Under the pieces are notes generated by a model that did not search any database, was not told where the DNA came from, and saw only the letters and a program-made list of their open reading frames with translations. 41,179 nt of DNA from a virus. A program made the position numbers and the translations under genes. This document shows, piece by piece, positions 19,739-22,456 of this stretch; the stretch's first letter is position 1, and each line of letters starts with the position of its first letter. Location: IMG/VR virus record IMGVR_UViG_3300018411_000007, positions 1 to 41,179 of that record. The stretch is one strand, 5' to 3'.

Positions 19739-19985
19739 TATCATCGGCGCAATCACAGCGCTAATCCTCGGCGCTATCGGGCTCTGGTTCGGCGGAAAGT
19801 CTCGCGGAAAGTCCGAGCAGAAAGCAAAGTCCGAAATGCAGCAGGCCCAGCAATCCGTGGCGCAAGAGAAAGCCCGCACAGAATCCGTTAAGGTGGCAAG
19901 CGATGTTAAAGATGAAGTTATGCGCAGTAATCCTGATTCTGTCCGCGACAAGTTGCGCGACGAATGGACCCGTCCAGGTAATTGA
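19722..19985 (+). CDS. Rz-like inner-membrane spanin
   Basis: The product is 87 residues with an N-terminal membrane anchor (LSSIIGAITALILGAIGLWF) and a long periplasmic coiled coil (KSEQKAKSEMQQAQQSVAQE). AAGGA is eight bases upstream of the ATG, which lies inside the end of the holin gene. Together with the overlapping lipoprotein gene it forms a two-component spanin that fuses inner and outer membranes at lysis. Confidence 0.85.
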   Translation: MLTLSSIIGAITALILGAIGLWFGGKSRGKSEQKAKSEMQQAQQSVAQEKARTESVKVASDVKDEVMRSNPDSVRDKLRDEWTRPGN

Positions 19986-20133
19986 TTCAAGCTGCGACTG
20001 GGTTCAGCCAATATGGATGGATGCCGGGGAAATCGACCACATGACCGATGGCACCCTGCGCCAGATTCTTACCCACAATGAGACATGGAAGAAAAAGTGT
20101 AATGGGGATAAAATGCCAGCCAGTAAAGGTTGA
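19903..20133 (+). CDS. Rz1-like outer-membrane lipoprotein spanin
   Basis: The product is 76 residues and begins in another frame inside the Rz-like gene, the classic Rz/Rz1 nesting. It has a lipoprotein-type signal (KLCAVILILSATSC) with Cys18 as the probable lipidated residue; the -3 residue is Ala instead of the usual Leu. AAGGTGG precedes ATG 19903. It is longer than lambda Rz1 and less Pro-rich. Confidence 0.8.
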   Translation: MLKMKLCAVILILSATSCATNGPVQVIDSSCDWVQPIWMDAGEIDHMTDGTLRQILTHNETWKKKCNGDKMPASKG

Positions 20134-20158
20134 CATGATAACCCGATTGAGCAATACT
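20130..20158 (+). promoter_or_regulatory. Putative promoter reading into the structured non-coding region
   Basis: TTGACA (20130-20135) in the GGTTGACA context, overlapping the TGA of the Rz1-like gene. Seventeen bases later AATACT (20153-20158) or, with a 19-base spacer, TACTAA (20155-20160). The -10 is weak. Confidence 0.45.
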
Positions 20159-20163
20159 AATAT

Positions 20164-20184
20164 CACAACGTTGCTCCCGTTGTG
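20164..20184. repeat. Hairpin CACAACG/CGTTGTG
   Basis: Perfect 7-bp inverted repeat with loop TTGCTCC. An alternative pairing GAGCAA (20149-20154) with TTGCTC (20171-20176) would exclude this hairpin, so two mutually exclusive folds are possible. Confidence 0.6.
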
Positions 20185-20264
20185 GTTGTGAAGGTATTTC
20201 GTGTTCCTTAATGCACGATGACGCGGGAAAAGAACCGTGACAGGAGGGAAGTAGACCCCGCGAA

Positions 20265-20344
20265 CACAACAGGTAAGGGCATTGACTACACCAGATAAAT
20301 CTTCGGATGCAATGGTAAAACCATGCAGTGCCCTTATCGTTGTG
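20265..20344. repeat. Long-stem inverted repeat, unit A
   Basis: CACAAC (20265-20270) pairs with GTTGTG (20339-20344); after one bulged A, GGTAAGGGCA (20272-20281) pairs with TGCCCTTATC (20329-20338) with one G-U. Inside, ATGGT (20312-20316) pairs with ACCAT (20320-20324), extended by TGC/GCA. Confidence 0.75.
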
Positions 20345-20442
20345 ACCAGCAAGACCATTCTCGGGGCGTGATTATCTTAACGGTAGCGTTTCGTGCTGGG
20401 CTGGCAAGTCGTTAAGCTTGAAGGTGTAACTGGTGCGGACAC

Positions 20443-20564
20443 CCACAACGCAACGATAAGAATATTGACCACGGAAAATCTCCGATGACCGTGACGTAAT
20501 ATGATGGGAATGCGAACCGTAAAAGATGTAGCATGGAGTCCATCCAGTATTCTTATCGTTGTGG
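20443..20564. repeat. Long-stem inverted repeat, unit B
   Basis: CAACGATAAGAATA (20451-20464) pairs perfectly with TATTCTTATCGTTG (20548-20561). An alternative outer pairing CCACAACG (20443-20450) with CGTTGTGG (20557-20564) is possible because CAACG is duplicated on the left. Internal stems: CACGG/CCGTG (20470-20474, 20489-20493) and GATGG/CCATC (20503-20507, 20540-20544), giving a multi-branched fold. Confidence 0.75.
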
Positions 20565-20705
20565 TGCAGGTTGCAGCAACTCTTGGCGATAGCAACCATA
20601 TTACGCTAAGGGTGAGAGCCACAGCAAATCGGTCAACTTAGTTGACACCGGACGCGTAACCGGCAATTACCAGATAAGAGCATTAACATCATAGCGCGCG
20701 CAGCT

Positions 20706-20732
20706 TGCAGTACCTTTTTATTGGTAACTGCA
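20706..20732. repeat. Hairpin in the leader of the Tad2-like gene
   Basis: TGCAGTACC (20706-20714) pairs with GGTAACTGCA (20723-20732) with one bulged A and an 8-base U-rich loop. It ends 12 bases before the start codon and abuts the ribosome site (GAGGG), so it could affect translation. Confidence 0.65.
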
Positions 20733-20744
20733 GAGGGTAATGGT

Positions 20745-20999
20745 ATGGATATGAATTTTGGTAATGCTGTTAATGCCATGGAAGTAGGGAAAAAGGTAGC
20801 TAGAAAAGGATGGAACGGCAAAGGAATGTTTCTTTTCATCGTCGCTGGTGATGCGTGGGGATTAGAAAGCGATATTGAAGGAATTGATGGCCTCTGCGGA
20901 GCGCCATTTATTTGCATGAAGACAGCTGATAACAAACTTATACCATGGCTGGCTAGTCAATCTGATGTTTTGGCTGAAGATTGGCAGGAAGTTAATTAA
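20745..20999 (+). CDS. Tad2/DUF2829 family protein (candidate anti-Thoeris)
   Basis: The product is 84 residues with the DUF2829 pattern: MNFGNAVNAMEVGKKVARKG, WNGKGMFLFIV, then FICMKTADNKLIPWLASQSD and LAEDWQEV. DUF2829 includes Tad2, a phage protein that binds and sequesters the cyclic nucleotide signal of the Thoeris defence system. The homology is clear by pattern; ligand binding here is inference. ATG 20745 has GAGGG eight bases upstream (the frame is open from 20721; ATG 20751 is an alternative). It ends on an intrinsic terminator and forms its own unit with the structured region before it. Confidence 0.88.
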   Translation: MDMNFGNAVNAMEVGKKVARKGWNGKGMFLFIVAGDAWGLESDIEGIDGLCGAPFICMKTADNKLIPWLASQSDVLAEDWQEVN

Positions 21000-21020
21000 C
21001 CCGCTCCGGCGGGTTTTTTC
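20998..21020 (+). terminator. Intrinsic terminator after the Tad2-like gene
   Basis: AACCCGC/GCGGGTT around a TCCG loop, followed by TTTTTTC. It insulates the accessory region from the portal gene. Confidence 0.92.
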
Positions 21021-21035
21021 TTATCCACATCCTCG

Positions 21036-21044
21036 TGATATACT
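21036..21044 (+). promoter_or_regulatory. Extended -10 promoter before the portal gene
   Basis: TG-A-TATACT with no good -35 at 17 bases. It lies between a terminator and the portal gene, where a new late transcript must start. Confidence 0.55.
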
Positions 21045-21070
21045 GACGTTAATTTTCATGAGGAATCAAA

Positions 21071-22456
21071 ATGGCTAAGAAGCCCCACCTCAAGCTACAC
21101 AATGACGGCAGCATGTCATATCGCGTGGATGCGTGGGCTAACCCCATCTCCGGGCAGGGCATGCCGGGCATCGACAAAAGCCTCGGGCAAATGCTGTCGC
21201 CTGCATTTTCTCATTTGCTGCATAACAACCAGCAGGTGCTGACCAACATCTACCTTTCGGACTGGCTGGCTCGTAAAATCTGCGACCTTCCGGCTGAGGA
21301 TGCCACCCGCAAGTTTATCGAAATAACCGGGCTGGATAGCGAGGATAAAAAGCGCGTAGAAACCATGCTTGATGACATGGGTCTTCGTGCATCTGTGCGC
21401 AAGGGCATCGCCTGGTCCCGCCTGTTCGGTGGTGCTGGCGTCCTGAAGGTTTACGATGACTCACGGCCGCCAGAATCACCGCCATCAGAAACAGCGGCTA
21501 TCATCGACCTCATCACGCTCGACCGCTGGTCATTGAGTGTTGATGAAATCGACCTAGACCCTGAGTCTCCGCATTATGGGCGCGCGCTGAATTATGTAGC
21601 CCGCAACGGCGTTAAATATCACCGCGGCCGAATTGCGCCTTTCTATGGCTGCTCAGTGCCATACGATACCCAGATTGAATTGCAGGGCTGGGGTGGCTCA
21701 TACGTCGCAATGGCATGGTCTGCGATTGCCGCATATAACGAGACTTTGCAGGATGCCTCATTCCTGCTGAAAGAGTCTGGCGTCGGCATCCTTTCAGTGC
21801 CAAACCTGACAGCGGCGCAATCAATGGGCATGACGGCATCTCAGGCCGTAATGAACCGTGCAAACGCCTTCAATCAGGGCAAGTCTATTTACCGCGCCGC
21901 CGTGGTGGACTCCGCTGAGAAATTCGAATTCGTTAACCGCTCACTCCAGGGCATCCCCGACTTCGTTGACCGATTCGCTACTGCGGTGGCTGGCGCGACG
22001 GGACTGTCTGAAATGATGCTGTTCGGCAAGTCTCCGGCAGGGCTGAATGCCAGTCAGGAAGAAATCCTGTCGGTTTACTACGACAAGATTGCCGCGATTC
22101 AGGAAGGCGATCCGTCTGCGCTGGTGAAGTCATGTATTGATAACGTGAAGATGCAGACAGGACTGGACTTCGACTGGAAGTGGGCAGAGCTTAGCGCGAT
22201 GTCGCCTGACAAGAAAGCAACGTCGATGGCATCGGTTGCGACGGCAATTTCAACGCTTGAGCAATCTGCTGCGCTCACGCCTAACGAGGTGCGCAACCTG
22301 GCTAACGATACCGGCCTGTTCTCTCTGGAAGAATTGCCAGAGGATGACAATTCGAATGATGACCCGTTAGGACTTAACTCACTCGGTGGCGAAAATGGCG
22401 CAAACGGAATTCCAGAAGCAACTGGAAGCACTGAAGCCGGACAAGAGGAAGCGTAG
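21071..22456 (+). CDS. Portal protein (DUF1073-type)
   Basis: The product is 461 residues. ARKICDLPAEDATRKFIEIT, the ASVRKGIAWSRLFGGAGVL segment, YNETLQDASFLLKESGVGIL and ATAVAGATGLSEMMLFGKSP followed by GLNASQEEILSVYYDKIA are typical of DUF1073 portals. Portals form the dodecameric vertex for DNA passage and terminase docking. The C-terminal 40 residues are acidic and low-complexity. It overlaps the next gene. Confidence 0.9.
   Translation: MAKKPHLKLHNDGSMSYRVDAWANPISGQGMPGIDKSLGQMLSPAFSHLLHNNQQVLTNIYLSDWLARKICDLPAEDATRKFIEITGLDSEDKKRVETMLDDMGLRASVRKGIAWSRLFGGAGVLKVYDDSRPPESPPSETAAIIDLITLDRWSLSVDEIDLDPESPHYGRALNYVARNGVKYHRGRIAPFYGCSVPYDTQIELQGWGGSYVAMAWSAIAAYNETLQDASFLLKESGVGILSVPNLTAAQSMGMTASQAVMNRANAFNQGKSIYRAAVVDSAEKFEFVNRSLQGIPDFVDRFATAVAGATGLSEMMLFGKSPAGLNASQEEILSVYYDKIAAIQEGDPSALVKSCIDNVKMQTGLDFDWKWAELSAMSPDKKATSMASVATAISTLEQSAALTPNEVRNLANDTGLFSLEELPEDDNSNDDPLGLNSLGGENGANGIPEATGSTEAGQEEA

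Follow-up and report, generated by a model that had tools for sequence, protein, structure and literature searches.

The window, a complete IMG/VR virus record of 41,179 bp, carries an RNA array and a tad2 gene in what is probably a single counter-defense unit, made up of a promoter, the array, tad2, and a terminator, with the array as a separate set of RNAs and not a leader of tad2. The tad2 gene adds a new member to a known family. The constant frame of the RNA modules is a new RNA family, absent from Rfam and unannotated in the phage records examined. The array and tad2 occur independently of each other and are separate cassettes.

Layout of the locus and the Tad2 protein

The DNA between the end of the lysis region at 19985 and tad2 is non-coding, and tad2 is followed by a terminator and a portal gene starting at 21071 (Table 1). 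The order of genes around the site is identical in Escherichia phage BUCT618, which has a tRNA-Ile gene where the window has tad2; both flanks, the terminator, and an equivalent promoter-like site in the same place are common to the two phages. The promoter and the terminator are each the sole site of their kind in 19980-21080, where about 1.5 and about one, respectively, are expected by chance; each kind is about as frequent as in shuffled sequence. The original prediction placed tad2 between a structured region and a terminator, and both are present, with a fold z of -4.9 for 20120-20745 and a terminator hit at 20998-21015. Elsewhere in the window, an N6/N4 DNA methyltransferase gene (PF01555; 15351-16187, minus strand) adjoins a gene for a single-stranded DNA-binding protein and is possibly another anti-restriction function of this phage.

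Table 1. Features in and around the tad2 locus, in window positions
Feature	Position	Strand	Basis or remark
Endolysin (GH108)	about 18.8-19.4 kb		5' side of the tad2 region
DUF2644-like and DUF2681 genes, lysis region	last ends 19985
Sigma-70-like promoter, TTGACA-17-AATACT	20130-20158	+	consensus scan
First array element: short CACAAC..GTTGTG hairpin (20164-20184) and type B element (20179-20270)	20164-20270	+	sequence; weak on its own
Type A module 1, complete: constant frame CACAACAGGTAAGGGCATTG...CAGTGCCCTTATCGTTGTG and insert	20265-20344	+	fold z -5.3; family frame covariation
Type B element 1, GTTGTG...CACAAC	20339-20449	+	common to nine module loci; fold z -1.1
Type A module 2, compensated frame (AGAATAT pairs with GTATTCT)	20449-20563	+	fold z -4.4
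Type B element 2, GTTGTGG...CCACAGC	20558-20625	+	sequence and fold, z -1.7
Type A module 3 remnant	20665-20714	+	aligned to tad2 locus L252 and to intact modules of L043 and L007
Ribosome site of tad2, GAGGG	20733-20737	+	sequence; inside block common to window and L252
tad2, 84 aa, Tad2-like (PF11195)	20745-20999	+
Intrinsic terminator, AACCCGCTCCGGCGGGTTTTTT	20998-21021	+	same type in BUCT618 and L252

The 84-residue product of tad2 had been assigned to Tad2/DUF2829 from its WNGKGMFLF and KTADNKLIPWLASQ blocks. Both blocks are present as described, and the assignment was borne out by sequence, profile, predicted fold, and the motifs that are kept. A Pfam HMM search, proposed earlier as a check, matched PF11195 (Tad2-like) over the whole profile (positions 1-73 of 73) at E 4e-26, with 91.7 bits against a cut-off of 25. 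With phmmer, solved Tad2 chains in the PDB were matched at E 7.5e-20 to 3e-14, among them, at E 7.5e-20 to 3e-15, ModTad2 (8v3e, 9eib), SPO1 Tad2 (8sme), SptTad2 (8wjd), and AcrIIA7/HgmTad2 (8kbi); identity to the solved structures is 34-48%. An AlphaFold2 monomer model built from 34 sequences had a pLDDT of 92.5 and a pTM of 0.81. When this model was compared with known structures by Foldseek, 24 Tad2/AcrIIA7 chains were matched at E < 1e-6 (TM 0.73-0.82 by query length), including complexes with 1''-3' gcADPR, 1''-2' gcADPR, His-ADPR, and cGG, and beyond these chains there was no match below E 0.8. PADLOC and NCBIfam gave no match for the 84-aa protein. Like the known Tad2 proteins (SPO1 gp34.65, ModTad2, SptTad2, and HgmTad2/AcrIIA7; PF11195), the window protein combines the full-length profile match with the predicted fold, and it keeps the motif blocks WNGKGM and KTADN..WLASQSD. 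Homologs are common, with matches in 299 phage records.

According to a review (PMC12043709), the gcADPR pocket of Tad2 lies in the β1-β2, β3-β4, and β4-α3 loops, strand β4, and helix α3. Sixteen positions are invariant among 34 relatives, and the window protein keeps them; they include R20, G22-M28, T60, W68, D74, D79, and W80, which by that published description lie in or near the pocket loops. Cyclic-dinucleotide binding, in turn, has been assigned to a long insertion between β2 and β5 (PMC12043709). The window protein has no such long insertion: 15 residues lie between the matched blocks, compared with 29 in SptTad2, and its middle region is thus shorter than that of SptTad2 where the cyclic-dinucleotide site is placed. 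Because this region is short and the short-form SPO1 Tad2 did not bind 3'3'-cGAMP (PMC11722364), a ligand of the ADP-ribose type is likely and cyclic dinucleotides are not predicted. The same two observations argue against a Tad2-fold sponge for a nucleotide signal outside Thoeris, such as the cyclic dinucleotides of CBASS. We consider such a sponge improbable, even though the relatives HgmTad2 and SptTad2 do bind cyclic dinucleotides (PMC12043709) and have structures among the Foldseek matches. An anti-Thoeris sponge is the likely activity of the window protein, and we are fairly confident that it sequesters a Thoeris messenger. The protein would most likely act as a tetramer that binds and withholds a messenger of the gcADPR or His-ADPR type, thereby keeping the Thoeris effector off.

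The RNA array and its frame family

The structured region upstream of tad2 (about 20164-20714) is an array of RNA modules, in which those of type A consist of a constant 19-bp frame, CACAACAGGTAAGAGCATTG on the 5' side and CAGTGCTCTTTCCGTTGTG on the 3' side, around a hypervariable insert. This frame is present in module 1 and, in compensated form, in module 2. Between the modules lie type B elements, each running from the frame's GTTGTG to a CACAAC or a variant; closure by CACAAC within 190 nt was found in 17 of 36 downstream clusters, compared with 1.6 in shuffles. At the start of the array, 20170-20275 folds with a z of -1.5. ARAGORN predicted no gene in the window and Rfam gave no tRNA match, and tRNA genes there were rejected for that reason. 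Nothing in the window reached the Rfam gathering level, and neither AgvB (RF02702) nor AsxR (RF02703) was matched; in 19980-20760, the sole hit up to E 5 was a snoRNA at E 3.7, a chance match.

Parts of 20264-20590 were matched in the mostly unannotated non-coding DNA of many phages of gut bacteria, including the Schitoviridae EC1-UPM, PGN829.1, CU10EC, and Pylas, the Skatevirus ZBSTP8, the Jedunavirus Geezett, the Koutsourovirus phiKDA1, BUCT618, Bas81, ZX4, and others. Side-by-side reading of the matching records revealed that the inserts differ between phages. A search that did not require pairing recovered at least 168 modules with at least 71 unrelated insert clusters from phages of several families. 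IMG/VR scans with each half of the frame gave at least 120 matches apiece, and the module counts are lower bounds.

Covariation in the frame was analyzed in an alignment of 58 distinct frame-half sequences in which a 4-nt spacer replaced the insert. The helix was paired in 92.6% of cells, and both sides had changed in 14 of its 19 pairs; column 7 (A) is nearly invariant and unpaired. Doubly changed cells numbered 49, compared with 13.9 in shuffles (none of 500 reached 49) and 3-9 in slid controls, where the shuffle result is not a probability because the sequences were picked by frame similarity and are partly related. The slid controls support a real frame helix. Open-licence papers on phage tRNA-like arrays, decoys, and tmRNA yielded no description of the frame family.

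Lambdoid prophages also carry the module. At five loci (L024, L042, L066, L136, and L163) it lies between Q-like and lysis genes, named here from their sequences, and directly follows a terminator-like hairpin. This position is near a known location of accessory DNA and sRNAs (PMC4104026). A distant blastn search of complete E. coli genomes with the window array returned no match, and many IMG/VR contigs hold other inserts. A strict exact pattern was found in 3 of 295 genomes for the Enterobacter seed family and in 1 of 298 for the Pseudomonas seed family, counts that include the seeds and are uninformative. One identical module occurs in assemblies of seven unrelated genera, Pseudomonas, Oceanobacillus, Leeuwenhoekiella, Neobacillus, Shewanella, Chromatium, and Streptomyces (L214, L228, L233, L234, L236, L239, and L240), and was set aside, being probably contamination of those assemblies with phage or E. 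coli DNA. Other genome matches outside the Enterobacterales lacked the 5' frame, consistent with chance 17-mer matches.

tRNA-like and tmRNA-like elements in related arrays

Some type B elements contain D-arm and T-arm sequences. A T-arm motif is also present in 17 inserts from 10 clusters among the modules listed, compared with 0.1 in mononucleotide shuffles. None of the window's own inserts has this motif, and since they lack a canonical T-arm, the case for calling them tRNA-like comes from the family. In the related loci scanned, tRNA was the only model to reach its Rfam gathering score, and most type A modules and type B elements are neither tRNA nor tmRNA by Rfam score.

Individual loci have further tRNA-like features. 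In L018 (7031-7183), a module frame and a true tRNA-Arg(UCU) share sequence, since the opening bases of the tRNA are also part of the 3' frame strand; a full frame helix and a full acceptor stem are therefore mutually exclusive. The inserts of L175 and L201, about 93-98 nt long, have two T-arm motifs each, and those of L064 and L059 begin with a T-arm, the arrangement of a permuted tRNA. In Schitoviridae, a gap of 2-2.5 kb precedes tad2 and the virion RNA polymerase gene, and it is filled by degenerate tRNA-like sequences (L003:4400-5500 and L010:3630-4600) that have T-arms and CCA ends and no annotation; one of them, at 5097-5169 of L003, has a tRNA score of 36.7 bits yet is unannotated. The arrays resemble phage tRNA arrays in consisting of small RNAs in tandem within accessory non-coding DNA, and some related loci mix true tRNAs with the modules. 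They differ from phage tRNA arrays in that neither ARAGORN nor Rfam recognizes most modules as tRNAs, and the constant 19-bp frame with its hypervariable insert belongs to the modules and not to tRNA genes.

Related arrays also contain a tmRNA-like element. The tag that E. coli tmRNA encodes is ANDENYALAA. In the arrays of enterobacterial phages, we found a frame of 10 codons and a stop that begins with AN[DE] and ends with L[AM][AV]A, in 31 distinct sequences encoding 11 tags (for example, ANDDVVLMAA, ANDEQFLAVA, ANEEVYLAVA, and ANDNQYLAVA), with synonymous changes at tag codons 7 and 10. The sites are L010:3294, L012:3617, L004:2722, L025 (minus strand) 5028, L179:545, and 26 more; five of the elements are in tad2 loci (L266, L271, L282, L322, and L323). 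The array of the window has no such element. Rfam tmRNA models matched at E 0.0003-0.4 (the permuted, beta, and alpha models at E 0.002 to 0.4), all below their gathering scores, and the tag frame is still conserved; no tRNA-like domain was identified on the same element as the tag. As of 2014, mycobacteriophages and Bacillus phage G were the only phages with a tmRNA on record (PMC4131195). Like the tmRNA genes of those phages (Bxz1, for example, among the mycobacteriophages), the related arrays carry a tag frame, but their elements score below threshold and are found in enterobacterial phages.

Relation of the array to tad2 and possible roles

The original prediction gave tad2 a regulatory leader of its own. 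On that reading, the structured region would act in cis and hairpins near the ribosome site would control translation of Tad2. The region does lie directly upstream of tad2, on the same strand, and is structured. A hairpin can also be drawn beside the ribosome site, as had been proposed, by pairing GCAGTACC (20707-20714) with GGTAACTGC, but its z of 0.01 is that of shuffled sequence and it is absent from L252. L252 contains the closest tad2 found, encoding a protein 93% identical to that of the window. The two loci have in common the ribosome-site block GGTAACTRCAGAGGGTAA, the coding sequence, and the type of terminator; upstream of tad2, L252 has a different gene and no array, and at the ribosome site a different fold, equally non-significant, replaces the hairpin. 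Because this homolog is free of the array and the hairpin is not significant, we reject the leader reading, to which we assign a very small probability.

The junction between the array and tad2 argues in the same direction. Compared with L043, L007, and L252, module 3 retains the 5' frame and the insert and is missing the 3' frame strand where the tad2 block begins. Since the module remnant ends at the tad2 block, the hairpin at the ribosome site joins the one to the other; on this alignment it is a product of the recombination junction and not a conserved element. The modules, moreover, are mostly found without tad2. Among the 197 array loci listed (L016-L212), which were fetched by DNA pattern, a Tad2 match was present only in L103, L189, and, weakly, L095. 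Conversely, the frame was found within about 4 kb in 1 of 80 tad2 loci (L323 only).

With the array taken as a separate RNA set, 20130-21021 would make up a single accessory unit of transcription, placed in an enterobacterial tailed phage between its lysis genes and its portal gene. Transcription would start at the sigma-70-like promoter, run through the tandem structured modules and tad2, and stop at the intrinsic terminator. The array would supply RNAs of its own, type A modules with exchangeable inserts alternating with type B elements, which are tRNA-like in related loci, and on balance we expect that it has a promoter of its own and that its transcript is processed. The favored role of these RNAs, though tentative and the least certain step of this reading, would be to mimic tRNA or tmRNA and serve as replacements or decoys against translation-directed defense. 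A viral tRNA-Lys, that of T5, is known to escape PARIS (PMC11455837), and an RNA with little beyond the tRNA-like domain of tmRNA inhibits tmRNA (PMC4131195); by analogy, these are precedents for parts of the mimicry reading and not tests of it. The broader proposal, that enterobacterial phages have an undescribed system of exchangeable RNA-mimic cassettes against translation-directed defense, comprising the framed modules, tRNA-like elements and, in related arrays, the tagged tmRNA-like element, and paired here with Tad2 in one unit, is speculative, and we think it unlikely in this full form.

The frames might instead be hairpins that serve a phage tRNA array as spacers or in processing, guiding cleavage of the transcript so that tRNA-like neighbors are freed, with inserts that have no function. 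Frames do adjoin tRNA-like elements or true tRNAs, a long perfect stem beside a tRNA would suit RNase cleavage, and the inserts are highly variable. On the other hand, at many loci the module has no recognizable tRNA, the frame is conserved far beyond the needs of a spacer, and the inserts are themselves structured and recur in unrelated phages, and we find this explanation rather doubtful. A regulatory role would also fit, because in the lambdoid prophages named above the module comes shortly after the late promoter and terminator, with Q on one side and the lysis genes on the other. An array acting in cis on late transcription, by put-like antitermination or RNA polymerase pausing, is nevertheless quite improbable, given that it is located elsewhere in the window and in the Schitoviridae, Jedunavirus, and Koutsourovirus records and that an RNA that binds polymerase would hardly be expected to have exchangeable inserts.

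The array could also be imagined as an AgvB-like sponge for the host sRNA GcvB, since CACAACA is the consensus of GcvB targets that prophage AgvB exploits (PMC4104026), and the frame conserves it strongly. This possibility is weakened because the motif of the window (20265-20270) is buried in the frame helix, with an unpaired probability of about 0. In addition, the best duplex with GcvB R1 was reached by 5 of 100 shuffles, and we consider a GcvB sponge highly improbable. The modules do resemble AgvB, AsxR, and the Pas sRNAs as small structured RNAs in lambdoid prophages, and AgvB and AsxR too have variable and constant parts and occupy the same moron site (PMC4104026, PMC13192938). They are unlike them in that AgvB and AsxR are Hfq-binding RNAs of 51-60 nt and the Pas sRNAs end in terminators.

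By itself, the tad2 gene is one further homolog of a known family, and the RNA upstream of it matters more. What stands out is a constant, covarying frame around dozens of unrelated inserts, found in several phage families and in lambdoid prophages, with tRNA-like and tmRNA-like neighbors. The tmRNA-like tags of the related arrays are open to direct testing. Should the inserts act as decoys or as replacement RNAs, the array would be the RNA equivalent of a protein sponge, and every insert would indicate a host system worth looking for.
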